64,000 nucleotides of DNA from positions 2,828,001 to 2,892,000 of the forward strand of contig OX387608.1 in assembly GCA_947568835.1 (NCBI GenBank). The letters run 5' to 3'. Both the position numbers and the translations under genes were made by a program. Source of the stretch: Protonemura montana. Its lineage: Eukaryota; Arthropoda; Insecta; Plecoptera; Nemouridae. How positions within the stretch are numbered: position 1 is the stretch's first letter; the number at the start of each line of letters is the position of its first letter. The notes under the pieces were generated by a model. It ran no database searches and was not told where the DNA came from. It saw only the letters and a list, made by a program, of their open reading frames with translations. Positions 2,472 to 58,990 of the stretch are shown here, piece after piece.

Positions 2472-5050
2472 TTCCGAGTTAAGCCGGCAATAAATCTACT
2501 TTCAATGAAATATCTGTTCAACCAAACTCTTCTTAGCTGGGGACAAAACTAAGCAAGGTTTCAAGCAATTTACTGATTGCATTATGTTACTTATCAAGTC
2601 GTTGGTACTTCTTCACTCTGACTAAACAGCACCCAGACATATGTAAAGAAAGCTGGGAGACCAAAGAAAGTCATTTCGCTTTTCTGGGGTCTTCCAGTTA
2701 GGAGCTCAAACCAGCAGTCGGTGAATGGAAGGGGGACGAAACTGAAAAAGGGATCTGTACTATTTTAAGATGTTTCCATCCTATTAGCTGACCAAGCTCT
2801 CGACAAAACCTAAACATGTGATTGACGGAAATTCATACGCATGACCAGCAACGTTTCGTCTTTGTACCAGCAAGAAACGTGCGTGCGTAGTGTGTGATCG
2901 AACGCACGCACCCCCCTATTCGGATGGGGTGGGTCCACCCCCCAGTGAGAGCAAAATAAGATCTGTCTGTGAATGTGTGCAGACAATATCTTATTCCTGG
3001 CAGGAGAAATGTTCGCCGATCTACGGCAGGCATCCCCTGCCCTACAAGAGGTGGGTGGTTGGAGGTGGCCTTCTTGCGCGACAGCACAAAGAAGGATTGG
3101 GGGAAAAATCACCCTTAAAAATTTGTATGTATTTCCCCTCACATGCAATGATGTATCTTCCAGTTCAAATAGTTCGTTACTTTCTATTTCAAAAAGAAAT
3201 GGAACATTTTCTTGCCGTGTTTCACGAACGATTGTGGATTTGTCTTAGAAATTGAACCAATTTCCTGGTGTTGTGGGATCGCTTTGTGTGATCCCGGGAC
3301 TCTGTTCCCTTTCGTAGACCGAATCATCCCGTCTAATTAGAGTAACGCAGGGGATTTGGGCGGGGATCAACGCCAATCAACAGGTTCCTTTTAATCCAAT
3401 TCCTATTGGTTCGCTCCGACTATCACTAGCCATCAGAAGTGTTACGTCACGCCTGAAAATTAAGGCAGGTTTTTGCTTTTTTTACCGAAGTAAAATGGCG
3501 TCCTGTGGTACACAATAAATATATCAACTTCGGTGCATCAAACCTACTGCAACAAGCACTACAGTAACTTACAATAAACCCCAAATCCACAATACTTGCT
3601 GTAAAACTTCGCATATTTACACTAAAACGTGTCATACTTCAGGTGCTACGTTTGTGAAGTCTATCAACTGACAGCAACAAAGCATCAAACACTCAAATCG
3701 ATTCAAATAATCATTGCAATAGACTTGAAGTAGTTGGTCGTTCTCAACAACAAATCCAAGTTATTCATTTTGTGCCCGTCATAGAAAACCCTGCGACAAG
3801 TTCTCCAGCACATTTGCATAGGGACAGTACCCGAGCCCAGCACACACCGAGCCCAACACACACCGAGCCCAACCATGTGTATATGTAATATTGATTGGTA
3901 TAACGGTATAGGGTGGGATTGAGGTGGGGGGGGGGGAGAGATTGGTCCCCATCCCACCTACATCCCTTCTTGTATGCCAATTCCCTTCTTCACTATATTC
4001 GTCCCGATCCCGTCGTGCCCGGGCCTCCACCCGTCTTCCCCTGTGGTTAACTTCCCGGGTCCTGGTCCATCAAACTCCTTGCGATGCCAGTCACTCAATA
4101 TCAGCGTCTTGCGAGATGGGATACACCAGTGGCGGCGAGGGGCCAGTCGGGAAATAGGGAAACTACAACTTGCAGTCATTGCTGGATTAGATATAAAACA
4201 TTGACAAATTTTCCTGGTGAATTTCCAGTCAACATTGATACTCTTTGTGCTAATTTCTTCGACTCTGAGTCAAGCTTCTAGCTCAAGGAATCATCTGGAT
4301 TTGAATGCTTGTGATTGGAAGTTGTCATTGCAATTCGTTTGAACACTTTTTAAACAACTAGGAGTTGAATCCGGAGCGAGTAGCCAACAAGTTTCCTCTG
4401 AACCACGGAAAGGGCAATCAACCGACTTGTGTGCCTTGGCTTGGACTTGTCAATGCCTTCCACCACTGTATACTTCATAGCTTTGCTCTGCATTGGTTGC
4501 CGAGTCCCTGGTCTGCACCGTCCAGTGGTGGTCCTTCCTATGCTGGCAGGCAAGGACCTACGCCACTAGAAGGGGATAACCAATACCTCTCCAGCTGAAC
4601 CACACGCAGGGCAGCCAACCTACAAACGTGGAAAACGGAAGCTTGGATGTGTGTGATGGAGATTGAATGCGATTGGGTGAAATTGGACTGAAACTCTGAG
4701 CGCAGTGCCGCGAGAGGGCGACATGCAAGTTTCAAATCTTGTCTGGGCCTAGTTTCTTATGTGGCAGTTGAGGAGGCTAAACCTTGGTGTGTCTCGATCT
4801 CCCCTACAAAGCAGCTCACGTCGGCTTACCAAGGCATGGCGTATTTTTTTACTGGTTTTCTTAATCATACGTTGTCGTGATTTCATTAGGTTATCAAAAA
4901 ACAGTGTCGACCGGAAACAAGATCAATTTTTTTTATGAAGGACATTTTCTCTCTTGTTGATATGCTCTTTTGAAATCTACATCGAAAAATACCAAAAATA
5001 TGTTGCAAGGTTTCGCCGTTATCAGTGTGGATGTTAAAACATGTTGGAAA
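2472..5050. other. Unique DNA with minor simple repeats
   Basis: No gene is recognised. The stretch contains a 15-bp direct repeat (ACCGAGCCCA-type units, three copies, about 3831-3872) and a short G run near 3925-3937. ORFs here of up to 121 codons overlap on both strands and show no domain. Confidence 0.5.
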
Positions 5051-5645
5051 CTCCGGTCCTCCTGAGATCACCGAAGTTAAGCAACACTGCGCTGGGTCAG
5101 GTATTGGATGGGTGACCATCATACACATGACCAGTTCTGTTCGGGAGAGAGGTTGGAGGGATGCAAGTTAAGCAACACTGTGCTGAGTCAGGTATTGCAA
5201 GGGTGACCGTCATACACATGACCGGTTCTGTCCGTAAGAGAGGTTGGAGGGATGAAAGTTAAGCAACACTGCGCTGGGTCAGGTATTGGATGGGTGACCA
5301 TCATACACATGACCAGTTCTGTTCGGGAGAGAGGTTGGAGGGATGAAAGTTAGTACAGCAACTTCACTCGCCTTGCTTATCAACCTCTCGACAGCATGGA
5401 TTTGTGGAGGAATCCTGTTGTTCGCGTTGTACCGCCCTTCGGAAGAGACGTTAAGTCGGTGGTCCCCTTGGTCTTCGACAGAAGTAGGCTACGTGCCGGC
5501 ACCGGGTTTCCCCTCCTCCCTTCTAGACTAAGTTATGTTCATCGTCATCCTCGTCATCACCCACACATTCACCGCCTCATGGTAAAAACAATGCGTCGTT
5601 TAACCTCACTAATAAATGTCGGTAAGACTAATAAAGCGTTCATAT
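5050..5645 (+). mobile_element. Composite 5S-derived element, copy A (most complete)
   Basis: In order this holds three 91-bp units related to 5S rRNA (about 5053-5348), a linker with one 36-bp unit (5349-5394), a core of about 130 bp starting with CATGGATTTGTGGAGG and ending near CTTCTAGAC (5395-5530), and a tail ending in ATGCGTCGTTTAAC (about 5590-5615). The same order, reverse complemented, is present at 43176-43577. A related copy without 5S units is at 14702-15122, one with most of the core missing is at 19097-19810, and a 5' part is at 49600-49930. No reading frame suggests a protein, so it would be non-autonomous. I infer a SINE-like retroposon mobilised through its tail. No target-site duplication was established. 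Confidence 0.8.
5053..5348 (+). repeat. Three tandem 91-bp 5S rRNA-like units
   Basis: GTTAAGCAAC starts at 5076, 5167 and 5258, and a truncated GTTAG follows at 5349, giving an exact 91-bp period. Each unit keeps the 5S internal promoter order: A-box-like GAAGTTAAGCAACA, then TATTGGATGGGTGACC or a variant matching the C box. The first unit extends further 5' (CCTGAGATCACCGAAG), matching the middle of 5S rRNA. The 5' third and the 3' end of a genuine 5S gene are missing, so these are 5S-derived repeats and not functional rRNA genes. The middle unit is more diverged (TATTGCAAGGGTGACC). Confidence 0.8.
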
Positions 5646-14690: not shown

Positions 14691-14701
14691 GGTACAACAC
14701 C

Positions 14702-15122
14702 TTCAGTCGCCTGGCTTATCAACCTCTCGACAACAACTTCACTCGCCTTGCTTATCAACCTCTCGACAACAACTTCACTCGCCTTGCTTATCAACCTCTC
14801 GACAGCAACTTCAGTCGCCTGGCTTATCAACCTCTAGACAGCGACTTCACTCGCCTTGCTTATCAACCTCTCGACAGCAACTTCACTCGCCTTGCTTATC
14901 AACCTCTCGACAGCATGGATTTATGGAGGAATCCTGTTGTTCGCGTTGTACCGTCCTTCGGAAGAGACGTTAAGCCGGTGGTCCCATTGGTCTTCGACTG
15001 GAGGAGGCTACGTGCCGGCACCGGGTTTCCCTCCTCGCTTCTAGATAGGTTAGGTTTATCATCACCCACTCATTTACCGACGCCATTAGAACAGAGCCTC
15101 ATGGCCAGTGCGTCGTTGAACA
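14702..15122 (+). mobile_element. Composite element, copy B (36-bp unit x 6, no 5S)
   Basis: Six 36-bp units (14702-14913) of the type CTTGCTTATCAACCTCTCGA plus CAGCAACTTCACTCGC lead straight into the core at 14914 (CATGGATTTATGGAGG), which runs to about 15047. The tail contains ACGCCATTAGA and GTGCGTCGTTGAAC (15079-15122). The core is close to copy A over its full length, including GTGCCGGCACCGGGTTTCCC. No 5S unit precedes the array, so the 5' part is missing. A frame of 176 codons across the copy follows from the 36-bp unit being a multiple of 3; the encoded 12-residue repeat FTRLAYQPLDSN is not a protein signature. Confidence 0.8.
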
Positions 15123-15516
15123 CAAAGCAATTTTCTGTCGTCTTCTAACGCTTCTCTGAGCTTCAAACGGCAAATAAGTTGAGAAGCAGAAAGCGTCACT
15201 AACACCGAAGTGAACGAGGAACGCAATGAGATTATTGTTTGACGTGTGGCACTCCGCTCGAACCCCGGTGCTGACTGACGAGAGCTTGGGCTGCTGGCTT
15301 GCACCCTTGTAGGAGACCTCTTGGGTGAGGGGTAAGGCGGAGAGGGAACCATCGCCCAATGCACAGATGCAAGAATGAAAGGGTTGAGGGTTGGGCCATG
15401 GTTTGGGACATTCGGTGAGTTGCATAGGAAGTTTTAGAAAGGAACCACTTAGAATCTACAGATCTACTCTGAGAATAATTTTAAATTTAAATAATTTTTA
15501 AAATAACTATCGATCT

Positions 15517-15968
15517 GGTTGTTGGTTAGATGCATCCAGGAAGCCTAGGCAAGGTGGTTGTTGGTTAGATGCATCCAGGAAGCCTAGGCAAGGTGGTTGT
15601 TGGTTAGATGCATCCAGGAAGCCTGGGCAAGGTGGTTGTTGGTTAGATGCATCCAGGAAGCCTAGGCAAGGTGGTTGTTGGTTAGATGCATCCAGGAAGC
15701 CTAGGCAAGGTGGTTGTTGGTTATATGCATCCAGGAAGTCTAGGCAAGGTGGTTGTTGGTTAGATGCATCCAGGAAGCCTAGGCAAGGTGGCTGTTGGTT
15801 AGATGCATCCAGGAAGCCTAGGCAAGGTGGTTGTTGGTTAGATGCATCCAGAAAGCCTAGGCAAGGTGGTTGTTGGTTATATGCATCCAGGAAGCCTAGG
15901 CAAGGTGGCTGTTGGTTAGATGCATCCAGGAAGCCTGGGCAAGGTGGTTGTTGGTTAGATGCATCCAG
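15517..15968 (+). repeat. 39-bp minisatellite, about 11.6 units
   Basis: The unit begins GGTTGTTGGTTAGATGCATC and continues CAGGAAGCCTAGGCAAGGT. Spacing is 39 bp (15517, 15556 and onward) with few substitutions, such as TTATATGCATCC and AGTCTAGG, so the array is young or homogenised. It begins abruptly after an AT-rich stretch and ends at ATGCATCCAGAC. No single-copy parent unit was seen elsewhere in the window. Confidence 0.95.
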
Positions 15969-19090: not shown

Positions 19091-19096
19091 TGGAGA

Positions 19097-19810
19097 AGCA
19101 CTGTTTTGACATCTGGCTATGTAGCACTGGTCTAATGGAGTCGGTGAATGAGTGGATGATGATGAGGATGATGATGAATGAACCTAGGCTAATTTGGAAG
19201 GGAGAAGGGAAAATCTGGTGCCGGCACGAAGTTGGTGTCGAGAGGTTGACAAGCAAGGCGAGTGAAGTTGTTGTCGAGAGGTTGATAAGCAAGGCGAGTG
19301 AAGTTGCTGTCGAGAGGTTGATAAGCAAGGCGAGTGAAGTTGCTGTCGAGAGGTTGATAAGCAAGGCGAGTGAAGTTGCTGTCAAGAGGTTGATAAGCAA
19401 GGCGAGTGAAGTTGCTGTCGAGAGGTTGATAAGCAAGGTGAGTTAAGTTGCTGTCGAGAGGTTGCTAAGCAAGGCGAGTGAAGTTGCTGTCGAGAGGTTG
19501 ATAAGCAAGGTGAGTTAAGTTGCTATCGAGAGGTTGATAAGCAAGGCGAGTGAAGTTGCTGTCGAGAGGTTGATAAGCAAGGTGAGTTAAGTTGCTGTCG
19601 AGAGGTTGATAAGCAAGGCGAGTGAAGTTGCTGTCGAGAGGTTGATAAGCAAGGCGAGTTAAGTTTCTGTCGAGAGGTTGATAAGCAAGGCGAGTGAAGT
19701 TGCTGTCGAGAGGTTGATAAGCAAGGCAAGTGAAGTTGTTGTCGAGAGGTTGATAAGCAAGGCGAGTGAAGTTGCTGTCGAGAGGTTGATAAGCAAGGCG
19801 AATTAAGTTG
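19097..19810 (-). mobile_element. Composite element, copy C (36-bp unit x 16)
   Basis: Read on the minus strand, sixteen 36-bp units (19231-19810) come first. They are followed by a short remnant of the core (GTGCCGGCAC, near 19219-19232) and by the tail with ACTCCATTAGACCAGTGC and GATGTCAAAACAGTGCTTC (19097-19150). Most of the core is deleted. A CATCAT-type expansion sits between remnant and tail (19155-19175). Units differ mainly by GCGAGTGAAG or GTGAGTTAAG variants, which alternate in the middle of the array as if a two-unit block had been duplicated. Long frames on both strands are by-products of the 36-bp period. Confidence 0.8.
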
Positions 19811-19879
19811 CTGGCCACGTGGCCAGTAAGCCCACGTGGGCAGTTAAAGGGAAATCTTCACGTTGATTATTCGGCGTTA

Positions 19880-22538: not shown

Positions 22539-22572
22539 ACCCGTCGACAGAACAGTGCGTCGTTAAACAACC
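22539..22572 (+). mobile_element. Fragment of the shared composite-element tail
   Basis: CAGAACAGTGCGTCGTTAAA followed by CAACC matches the tail of the composite copies (43189-43215 reverse complement). This shows that the tail is shared by elements lacking the 5S and 36-bp parts. Confidence 0.6.
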
Positions 22573-34361: not shown

Positions 34362-35422
34362 CAGTGATGTAGTGGTCAATGCACGCAGATGTACGCAGTC
34401 CACCCAGTGGTGTAGTGGTCAATACACGCTGGTGTACGCAGTCCACCCAGTGGTGTAGTGGTCAATGCACGCTGGTGTATGCAGTCCACCCAGTGATGTA
34501 GTGGTCAATGCACGCGGTGTACGCAGTCCATCCAGTGATGTAGTGGTCAATGCACGCGGGTGTACGCAGTCCACCCAGTGATGTAGTGGTCAATGCACGC
34601 GGGTGTACGCAGTCCACCCAGTGGTGTAGTGGTCAATGCACGCTGGTGTATGCAGTCCACCCAGTGATGTAGTGGTCAATGCACGCGGTGTACGCAGTCC
34701 AACCAGAGATGTAATGGTCAATGCACGCAGGTGTACGCAGTCCACTCAGTGATGTAGTGATCAATGCACGCGGGTGTGCGCAGTCCACCCAGTGATGTAG
34801 TGGTCAATGCACGCGGGTGTACGCAGTCCACCCAGTGATGTAGTGGTCAATGCACGCGGGTGTACGCAGTCCACCCAGTGATTTAGTGGTCAATGCACGC
34901 GGGTGTACGCAGTCTACCCAGTAATGTAATGGTCAATGCACGCGGGTGTACGCAGTCCACCCAGTGATGTAGTGGTCAATGCACGCGGGTGTACGCAGTC
35001 CACCCAGTGGTGTAGTGGTCAATGCACGCGGGTGTACGCAGTCCACCCAGTGATGTAGTGGTCAATGCACGCAGGTGTACGCAGTCCACTCAGTGATGTA
35101 GTGGTCAATGCACGCTGGTTTACGCAGTCCACCCAGTGATGTAGTGATCAATACACGCTGGTGTACGCAGTCCATCCAGTGATATAGTGGTCAATACACG
35201 CTGGTGTATGCAGTCCATCCAGTGATGTAGTGGTCAATGCACGCGGGTGTACGCAGTCCATCCAGTGATGTAGTGGTCAATGCACGCGGGTGTACGCAGT
35301 CCATCCAGTGATGTAGTGGTCAATGCACGCGGGTGTACGCAGTCCACCCAGTGATGTAGTGGTCAATGCACGCGGGTGTACGCAGTCCACCCAGTGATGT
35401 AGTGGTCAATGCACGCGGGTGT
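34362..35422 (+). repeat. 43-bp satellite, about 25 units, each with a tRNA A-box-like motif
   Basis: The unit is CAGTGATGTAGTGGTCAATG followed by CACGCGGGTGTACGCAGTCCACC. It is repeated without interruption with 1-4 substitutions per unit and occasional 42-bp units. The segment TGRTGTAGTGG matches the pol III A-box consensus TRGYNNAGTGG at 10 of 11 positions, or fully in units with TGGTGTAGTGG (near 34410, 34452, 34622, 35009). What follows (TCAATGCACGC) resembles the rest of a tRNA D arm. No B box occurs in the unit. The array ends at a truncated unit, GGGTGTTAG. Confidence 0.95.
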
Positions 35423-37385: not shown

Positions 37386-38218
37386 CGACCTAGCTTTGCT
37401 ATCACAATACTGCTTAAACCTACCTATGTTAGCACGGTACTGCTTAAACCTACCTATGTTAGCACGGTACTGCTTGGACCTAGCTATGTTAGCACGGTAC
37501 TGCTAGGACCCAGCTATGTTAGCACGGTACTGCTAGGACCCAGCTATGTTAGCACGGTACTGCTTAAACCTACCTATGTTAGCACGGTACTGCTTGGACC
37601 TAGCTATGTTAGCACGGTACTGCTTGGACCTACCTATGTTAGCACGGTACTGCTAGGACCTGGCTATGTTAGCACGGTACTGCTAGGACCCAGCTATGTT
37701 AGCACGGTACTGCTTGGACCTAGCTATGTTAGCACGGTACTGCTTGGACCCAGCTATGTTAGCACGGTACTGCTTGGACCTAGCTATGTTAGCACGGTAC
37801 TGCTTGGACCTAGCTATGTTAGCACGGTACTGCTTGGACCCAGCTATGTTAGCACGGTACTGCTTGGACCTAGCTATGTTAGCACGGTACTGCTTGGACC
37901 CAGCTATGTTAGCACGGTACTGCTAGGACCTAGCTATGTTACCACGGTACTGCTTGGACCTGGCTATGTTAGCACGGTACTGCTAGGACCTAGCTATGTT
38001 AGCACGGTACTGCTTGGACCTGGCTATGTTAGCACGGTACTGCTTGGACCTGGCTATGTTAGCACGGTACTGCTAGGACCTAGCTATGTTAGCACGGTAC
38101 TGCTTCGACCTGGCTATGTTAGCACGGTACTGCTTGGACCTGGCTATGTTAGCACGGTACTGCTTGGACCTAGCTTTTCTATCATAATCTTGCTAGGACC
38201 TGGCTATGTAAAGGTACT
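37386..38218 (+). repeat. 30-bp satellite, about 28 units
   Basis: The unit is TACTGCTTGGACCTAGCTAT followed by GTTAGCACGG, in exact 30-bp register, with variants TTGGACC, TAGGACC and TTAAACC, and TAGCTAT, CAGCTAT and TGGCTAT. The outermost units differ from the interior and resemble each other. Because 30 is a multiple of 3, a 301-codon plus-strand frame (37323-38228) is open across it, encoding VLLGPSYVST repeats. A second frame is also open, so I do not call a protein. Confidence 0.95.
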
Positions 38219-43175: not shown

Positions 43176-43577
43176 TATTTATTTATTTGTGGTGTTTAAC
43201 GACGCACTGTTTTGACATCTGGTCATGCGGCACTGGTCTAATGGCGTCACTGAATGAAAGGATAATGATGAACCTAACCTAACCTAGAAGGGAGGACGTT
43301 GCTGGCACGTAGCCTACTCCTGTCGAAGAGCACCAAGGGGACTACCGGCTTAACGTCCCTTCCGAAGGACGGTACAACTCGAACAACAAGATTCCTCCAC
43401 AAATCCATTCTGTCGAGAGGTTGATAAGCAAGGCGAGTGATGTTGCTGTACTAACTTTCATCCCTCCAACCTCTCTCCCGAACAGATCTGGTCATGTGTA
43501 TGATAGCCACCCATCCAATACCCGACTCAGCGTAGTGTTGCTAAACTTTAATCCCTCTTACCTCTCTCCCGAGCAAC
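43176..43577 (-). mobile_element. Composite 5S-derived element, copy D
   Basis: Minus strand, in order: a truncated 5S-like unit, a full 5S-like unit (43455-43577), one 36-bp unit (about 43409-43447), the core (43293-43409, CAGAATGGATTTGTGGAGGA to ACGTGCCAGC), and the full tail with ACGCCATTAGACCAGTGC, CAAAACAGTGCGTCGTTAAA and a terminal AAATAAATAAATAA run (43176-43290). This copy gives the cleanest 3' end: the AAATA simple tail is what a retroposon would carry. TTAGG-type repeats (CCTAACCTAACC, 43273-43284) lie between core and tail. Confidence 0.8.
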
Positions 43578-49599: not shown

Positions 49600-49930
49600 A
49601 TTCATGACTGAAGTTAAGCAACACTGCGCTGAGTCGGATGTTGGATGGGTGACCATCATACACATGACCAGTTCTGTTCGGGAGAGAGATTGGAGGGATG
49701 CAAGTCAAGCAACACTGCGCTGGGTCAGGTATTGGATGGGTGACCATCATACACATGACCAGTTCTGTACTGGAGAGGTGTTGGAGGGATGAAAGTTAAG
49801 CAACACTGCGCTGAGTCAGGTATTGGATGGGGGACCATCATAGACATGGCCAGTTCTGTTCGGGAGAGAGGTTGTAGGGATGAAAGTTAGTACAGCAATT
49901 TCAATCGCCTTGCTTATCAACCTCTAGATA
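49600..49930 (+). mobile_element. Composite 5S-derived element, copy E (5' part)
   Basis: 5S-like units start at 49613, 49704 and 49795 (GTTAAG or GTCAAG), with the truncated GTTAG at 49886: exactly the 91-bp, three-unit arrangement of copy A. The same junction GTTAGTACAGCAA, then TTGCTTATCAACCTCT of a 36-bp unit follows. The copy then stops at about 49928, so core and tail are missing. The first unit lacks the extra 5' bases of copy A. Confidence 0.8.
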
Positions 49931-58169: not shown

Positions 58170-58420
58170 TCGTTTCCTTGTATTTTTGTATTGTATTTGT
58201 AAACGCTTTGTAAATCTGGCTTTACAAAACTTTCTACAGCGTAGTACCGGTAGGTGCCACCCGATGGCGCTTGCAGCCGTGCTTTTTAACAAACCTCTAC
58301 AATTCAATAATTACGAGTCAAAATATCACGATACATGTTTATCAATTGTTGAGGTTAGCAATAATAAAGATTGATTGAGTGTAAACCAGACTCAAATGCG
58401 AGTAATCTGCGAGAAATAAC
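58170..58420 (+). mobile_element. Interspersed element with a CTCF-like site (copy 2)
   Basis: This aligns with the minus strand of 24776-24925: GTAGTACCGGTAGGTGCCAC, GATGGCGCTTGCAG, AATAAAGATTGATTGAGTGT, ACTCAAATGCGAG. Divergence between the copies is considerable, yet the GCC-rich block is conserved. The 52-bp array begins directly at its 3' end. Confidence 0.7.
58257..58270 (+). promoter_or_regulatory. CTCF-like motif in the element
   Basis: CCACCCGATGGCGC, 13 of 14 positions of the CTCF core, identical to 24879-24892 on the other strand. The two sites point away from each other. Confidence 0.4.
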
Positions 58421-58990
58421 ATTAGCACTGTGACTCTGACTAAACCTGTGAACCCAATGGCAGGACGTTTAACATTAGCGGTGTGACTCTGACTGAACAT
58501 GTAAACCCAATGACAGGACGTTTTATATTGGCGCTGTGACTCTGACTAAACCTGTGAACCCAATGACAGGACGTTTAATATAAGCGCTGTGACTCTGACT
58601 AAACCTGTAAACCCAATGGCTGGACGTTTAACATTAGCGCTGTGACTCTGACTGAACATGTAAACCCAATGACAGGACGTTTAACATTAGCGCTGTGACT
58701 CTGACTAAACCTGTAAACCCAATGACAGGACGTTTAACATTAGCGCTGTGACTCTGACTATACCTGTAAACCCAATGGCAGGACGTTTAACATTAGCGCT
58801 GTGACTCTGACTGAACCTGTAAACCCAATGGCAGGACGTTTAACATTAGCGCTGTGACTCTGACTAAACCTGTAAACCCAATGACAGGATGTTTAACATT
58901 AGCGCTGTGACTCTGACTAAACCTGTAAACCCAATGACAGGACGTTTAGCATTAGCGCTGTGACTCTGACTAAACCTGTAAACCCAATGA
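58421..58990 (+). repeat. 52-bp minisatellite, about 11 units
   Basis: The unit is ATTAGCGCTGTGACTCTGAC then TAAACCTGTAAACCCAATGA and CAGGACGTTTAAC, in 52-bp register. Variants (TGAACATG, GGCAGG, TATATTGG) are shared by non-adjacent units, suggesting a higher-order duplication. One further unit, in reverse orientation, sits beside the other copy of the parent element at 24663-24708. Confidence 0.95.

Follow-up and report, generated by a model that had tools for sequence, protein, structure and literature searches.

A 5S-headed SINE with variable tandem arrays of its own parts in the stonefly Protonemura montana

We analysed a 64,000-nucleotide stretch of the Protonemura montana genome (the window, C11:2828001-2892000 in an assembly of 258.5 Mb and 34 contigs) and found that a composite repeat in it is a real 5S-headed (SINE3-type) SINE with thousands of genomic copies, parts of which stand in tandem arrays of variable length. 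In the reading that we favour, with a probability of roughly 0.6, a LINE moves this SINE, its dispersed copies act as seeds of local tandem arrays, and multi-unit RNAs have in some cases been retrotransposed as well.

The element is composed of a 5S head, a 36-bp unit, a core, a GTGCGTCGTTAAAC tail and short A/T-rich repeats. Its single-unit form is about 430 bp long in a consensus from 13 copies, and the full-length layout runs from a leader (with ACCGAACGG near its start) through one 5S unit, one 36-bp unit and the core to GTGCGTCGTTAAACACCACAAAT and the short A/T-rich repeats. The 91-bp unit comprises the inner part of the 5S sequence and its 3' extension. All five copies that the initial annotation had located in the window were confirmed, and they are listed here with one isolated tail motif.

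5026..5146, plus strand: head of copy 1, consisting of the leader and the first 5S unit (Rfam RF00001)
5074..5352, plus strand: three 91-bp 5S-derived units of copy 1 (Tandem Repeats Finder)
5355..5390, plus strand: one 36-bp unit of copy 1, beginning with ACAGCA, which occurs again at 5391 (sequence reading and BLAST)
5391..5604, plus strand: core and tail of copy 1 (ATGCGTCGTTTAAC at 5591-5604)
14694..15121, plus strand: copy 2, with about six 36-bp units (14694-14915), core and tail GTGCGTCGTTGAAC, lacking the 5S part
19095..19813, minus strand: copy 3, with about 16 36-bp units (19228-19813), only the last part of the core and a decayed tail, lacking the 5S part
43182..43575, minus strand: copy 4 (the 43176 copy), consisting of a 5S-unit fragment of about 27 bp, a complete 5S unit, a single 36-bp unit, the core, the GTGCGTCGTTAAAC tail and AAAT repeats, flanked on both sides by AATTAGTTG
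49604..49928, plus strand: copy 5, with three 91-bp 5S units (49611-49889) and a partial 36-bp unit, lacking core and tail
22555..22568, plus strand: exact tail motif GTGCGTCGTTAAAC with no SINE core upstream

The single internal order that had been ascribed to all five copies is present in those at 5050 and 43176, which combine the 5S part, the 36-bp unit, the core and the tail, but not in the other three: the copies at 14702 and 19097 have no 5S part, the latter also lacks most of the core, and the copy at 49600 ends inside its first 36-bp unit. The window contains four further minisatellites besides the SINE (15516-15968, 34362-35422, 37387-38175 and 58417-58990, with 39-, 43-, 30- and 53-bp units), so this genome seems to be rich in minisatellites.

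The Rfam model RF00001 matched the head of copy 1 over its whole length (model positions 1-120, window 5026-5146) with 44.9 bits against a cut-off of 38, and scores above this cut-off were also obtained at the loci L001, L004, L006, L010 and L013 (39.3 to 60.7 bits, the highest at L013); locus L041 scored 34.8, below the cut-off. We assigned the element to the 5S-headed SINEs because of this head. The inner 5S-like region is retained in the alignment and TTTT is absent from the first 425 bases of the consensus; transcription of the element by pol III is predicted. The border between the 36-bp unit and the core matched 9,765 places in the 258-Mb assembly (4,877 forward and 4,888 reverse, at most 2 mismatches), and the border between the last 5S unit and the 36-bp unit matched 7,783 places (3,917 and 3,866, at most 3 mismatches in 42 bases), with no match for a reversed-pattern control. 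The element thus has what characterises SINE3 families, namely a 5S-derived head, a short length, dispersion in high copy number and in both orientations, and target-site duplications (TSDs). The exact core and tail had no match in viral contigs. An apparent strand polarity at C1 30.05-32.04 Mb, where only plus matches were seen among the matches listed, was rejected, as locus L026 contains an exact minus match and other patterns list both strands; we took this stretch to reflect an incomplete list and not biology. At 19 loci on contig C1, exact matches to five patterns (unit-type and body) were all present among the matches listed, as far as these extend.

For a closer comparison, 60 loci were fetched, 30 of them from matches to the 5S/36-bp border, all on C1, and the others being 30 of the 37 matches picked by a rare variant, on nine contigs. 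TSDs were scored in 51 copies, made up of the 50 of these 60 loci with a recognised tail (the 10 without one being left out) and the 43176 copy. The duplications that the initial annotation had proposed to look for were found: 12 of the 51 copies scored at least 9, compared with 0.65% of 2,601 mismatched flank pairs. A separate test used 27 copies whose head was nearly whole, the other 33 of the 60 loci being dropped because their head or tail was not nearly whole; 8 of these copies scored at least 10, and no mismatched pair did. The TSDs show that the element has been inserted as a mobile element. With the Rfam head, the TSDs and the variable arrays, the view of a composite 5S-headed SINE joined to an expandable minisatellite was borne out.

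The fixed count of three 91-bp units, which had been proposed from the two triplets of the window, did not survive this comparison. Three units are indeed present at both 5050 and 49600, but full 91-bp units ranged from 0 to 11 across the 60 loci and numbered three in only six of them (0 units in 8 loci, 1 in 21, 2 in 7, 3 in 6, 4 in 4, 5 in 3, 6 in 3, 7 in 4, and 8, 9, 10 and 11 in one locus each). Both triplets do run into AAAGTTAGTACAGCAA, as had been observed for their shared GTTAG junction; this junction is no mark of a triplet, being the ordinary head-to-body border that occurs at the 7,783 places, single-unit copies included. The 36-bp unit was single in 60/60 loci, which the rare-variant pattern (30 loci) required and the border pattern did not.

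Four registers expand in this family, with lengths of 15, 36, 91 and 92 bp. At L036-L038, a 15-bp piece within the 5S unit has grown to tens of copies. Borders between one 36-bp unit and the next occurred 2,709 times genome-wide (at most 2 mismatches), and exact ones, among the matches listed, at about a dozen places, one of which spans about 2.3 kb; a separate 92-bp head-to-head border occurred 1,049 times (at most 1 mismatch). In these arrays the tandem units are parts of the SINE, and SINE sequence continues from them to a SINE end, as is characteristic of SINE-derived satellites (sSats). In the single-unit consensus (13 copies), identical 6-bp sequences recur in direct orientation 91, 36 and 15 bp apart, distances that match three of the registers seen in the window and the loci, and the border repeat of the 92-bp head unit is only 3 bp long (ACC). 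Direct-repeat pairs of at least 6 bp number 18 in the consensus versus 7.6 in shuffles, so a repeat alone is insufficient for a register. We also observed a head-variant subfamily, CCACCGAACGG...GGTCCTC, that recurs at C5:17.6-18.9 Mb and C12:11-16 Mb and on C5 often forms 92-bp tandem heads.

TSDs were recognised less often in copies with several units. They were present in 10 of the 25 copies that have a single unit piece versus 2 of the 26 that have at least two (P = 0.009; the latter class counts L007, a single unit interrupted by a gap, among its members), and, among copies with a nearly whole head, in 8 of 14 single-unit versus 1 of 12 multi-unit copies. Uncertain 5' ends of copies without a whole head may lower the multi-unit count. 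Core divergence was similar in copies with 1, 2-3 and at least 4 units (0.053, 0.058 and 0.061, respectively). Two loci with 6 and 3 units, L008 and L009, have a common 3' flank (96% over about 1.2 kb), and a match between their 5' flanks was not found. The rarer TSDs of multi-unit copies, the mixture of unit types and this one-sided flank fit ectopic exchange between copies, and fewer TSDs in multi-unit copies are what would be expected if such exchange separates the flanks. Locus L041 combines 7 units with a 10-bp TSD. At positions 2514-2716 of this locus lies a long inverted repeat with microRNA-family matches below the cut-offs, perhaps a MITE-like element. L044 and L058 are SINE copies that were seemingly inserted into copies of the same SINE, because their TSDs consist of SINE sequence. 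The 5' flank of L003 and the 3' flank of L046, which are unlinked, share a minisatellite whose period is about 41 bp; their versions of it are about 94% alike over about 830 bp.

Unit variants were compared in 32 arrays with 150 units, of which 145 were kept after odd-length units had been dropped; L009 was left out as a flank duplicate of L008. Variants present in 2 to 8 units gave 71 within-array sharings, whereas 1,000 permutations gave 11.6 on average and never more than 25. Between arrays of equal length, the unit distance was 0.061 at the same index and 0.057 at different indices, and only one pair of arrays had at least two rare variants shared within a unit. Variant sharing inside arrays together with the lack of index agreement points to local duplication. 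The window triplets themselves differ at the one common variable site, reading G-A-G at 5050 and A-G-A at 49600. Given the unit numbers, this difference and the sharing inside arrays, a fixed, inherited triplet was rejected, and the earlier conclusion that the triplet was inherited and not formed locally was given up, the variants being mostly private to a locus.

A weaker form of that conclusion did find support. In the fetched loci, A was the base at unit position 22 in 19/31 first units, 15/83 middle units, 11/31 last units and 10/17 single units (L009 being left out of the array counts, and 17 of the 21 single units being kept after dropping odd lengths). Genome-wide, among exact matches, in which long arrays weigh more, A occupied this position in 1,008 of 1,852 first units (54%) versus 2,885 of 10,519 later units (27%). 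Such a bias between first and later units is unexpected if every array grew from its own single unit, and unit types show some degree of inheritance or mixing. The 43176 copy, which is cut inside its second unit, is preceded by AATTAGTTG, and the same letters recur after its tail (TSD score 9, P = 0.0065, one of 51 tests). With the cut lying beside this modest TSD, some multi-unit RNAs were probably copied, that is, retrotransposed.

The age of the unit separation is ambiguous. Mean unit distance was 0.052 within arrays versus 0.056 between arrays; without CpG sites, the within-array value was 0.048 for 2-3 units and 0.038 for at least 4 units. If the units had parted at insertion, a distance of 0.053 would be expected by single-unit copies, which the observed values approach, and of 0.12 by the core, and the observed value lies far below the latter (P about 3e-8). 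Within-array distance did not rise with core divergence. Neither yardstick is clean, because even in single-unit copies the core has diverged about twice as much as the unit.

Arrays are also unevenly placed on C1. By exact matches, on this one contig and at one of its ends, the first 2.2 Mb contained 26 arrays and the stretch 2.2-27.1 Mb contained 10. Of 27 bodies in the first part, 12 had an array close by, as against 7 of 72 in the second (P = 0.0003), in a test that covers bodies up to 27.1 Mb. To read this as a subtelomeric position assumes that the low end of C1 is a chromosome end.

In the favoured reading, a LINE would move the element, and its short internal direct repeats would permit tandem growth of the 91-, 36- and 15-bp pieces (6-bp repeats) and of the 92-bp head (ACC). 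Growth would then take place mostly at the DNA level after insertion, through slippage and through putative unequal or ectopic exchange between copies, would be strongest near the low end of C1, and would be accompanied by occasional retrotransposition of multi-unit RNAs. A considerably less probable account, which we still take seriously, gives the leading part to multi-unit master elements with A-type first and G-type later units, which are transcribed and retrotransposed so that arrays are mostly inherited; this keeps the view of the initial annotation but drops the fixed count. It would account for the A/G bias, the 43176 copy truncated inside its second unit beside AATTAGTTG, the 10-bp TSD of the seven-unit L041, and a within-array distance nearly equal to that between arrays (0.052 and 0.056). 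However, equal-length arrays show no agreement by index (0.061 at the same versus 0.057 at different indices), only one array pair shares at least two rare variants per unit, unit numbers spread widely, TSDs are rare in multi-unit copies, and arrays are concentrated at one contig end.

We think it quite unlikely that reverse transcription itself creates the arrays, whether through slippage or through a switch of template from one SINE RNA to another at the AAGTTA repeat, and that insertion then fixes them: neither the concentration at a contig end nor the scarcity of multi-unit TSDs is predicted by such an origin, and RNA switching would not yield G-rich later units when single units are A in 10 of 17 cases, although within-array divergence lies near the copy age given by single-unit copies and A and G units are mixed in many arrays. 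That a pre-existing satellite of 5S-like or 36-bp units was captured by the SINE, with single-unit copies as contracted arrays, seems extremely improbable. Some arrays do lie far from any exact body match (e.g., the 91-bp run at C1:62181-63942), and the body starts with AAGTTA-GTAC-AGCAAC where the 5S unit starts with AAGTTA-AGCAAC, so that a second 5S unit may have left its stump at the head/body border. Against this, the leader with which the 91-bp unit is continuous is 5S-like too, copies with one full unit form the largest class (21/60), recognised TSDs are mostly in single-unit copies, and the 36-bp unit is single in every fetched locus, as the pattern required for 30 of them. A functional extension, very unlikely in our judgement, holds that multiplication of the 5S head would multiply the internal pol III promoter, that array length would set transcription, and that copies with several promoters would be favoured sources; if true, this would be a SINE with a heritable, tunable promoter number.

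As for the LINE of the favoured reading, the initial annotation had suggested looking for one that shares the tail. None was found among 32 reverse-transcriptase stretches, the SINE tail being absent from 30 reverse-transcriptase loci and two further 3' stretches (150 of 1,781 candidates scored). The exact tail GTGCGTCGTTAAAC occurs without upstream core at a few places, such as window 22555-22568 and the minus strand of L058 at 2785; as a lead only, the coreless tail at 22555 is possibly the end of the partner LINE or of another SINE. Of the best reverse-transcriptase matches, many fall at C11:54367-932285 (in the first megabase) and C16:29486730-29528256 (at about 29.5 Mb).

A search largely confined to papers outside subscription, in the literature on 5S SINEs, tandem heads and SINE-derived arrays, found no paper on tandem 5S heads in a SINE, and a search with the letters of the tail and core gave no paper on a SINE by its title among the matches listed; the SINE family itself may already be catalogued. 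SVA-type retroposons, which are composite, non-autonomous and carry an internal VNTR, are an analogy only, having no 5S head and another origin. Among 5S-headed elements, HaSE3 of Helicoverpa armigera (SINE3) has the same succession of 5S rRNA-derived head, body and tail, but its abstract does not mention a tandem head, and the tail of HaSE1 and HaSE3 has been traced to an RTE-type LINE, whereas here the LINE was not found (PMC3272025). Among satellites, PcH-sat of Patella caerulea is likewise an invertebrate satellite grown from a SINE (a Nin-SINE), but its 179-bp unit derives from the 3' part of a tRNA-type SINE, is pericentromeric and makes up about 10% of the genome (PMC11121367). Jerboa Dip multimers contain up to eight full-length SINEs, whereas here only SINE parts multiply, and SINEs with internal duplications of about 30 nt resemble this family in their short internal duplication (both via PMC10702118, which describes them at second hand).

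The closest precedent among the works compared is provided by the sSats of squamate reptiles, which derive from Squam SINEs with a tRNA portion in the head and reach up to about 950-1200 units (PMC10702118). In both systems, SINE copies that can still be recognised contain part of the head and body in tandem, the terminal unit is longer and leads to a SINE end, and several registers occur; alternating unit types, subtelomeric preference (here a concentration at one end of C1, assumed to be a chromosome end) and independent origins are further features of the squamate arrays to which the present SINE can be likened (PMC10702118). It differs from what is described there in its 5S head, in mostly having 1 to 11 units in the loci seen, in combining four registers in one family and in the sign of multi-unit RNAs that moved (PMC10702118). 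In the sources compared, the SINEs that gave rise to satellites contain a tRNA portion and belong to squamates and a limpet (PMC10702118, PMC11121367). Arrays grown from SINEs are known, for instance in reptiles, and the present family represents a variant in which the SINE is 5S-headed and forms arrays of several kinds. In this family, with its 5S head and four registers, a single genome contains copies ranging from one unit to long arrays, which makes it possible to count how satellites are born from dispersed repeats; one can also ask if extra promoter units help or hinder a SINE.
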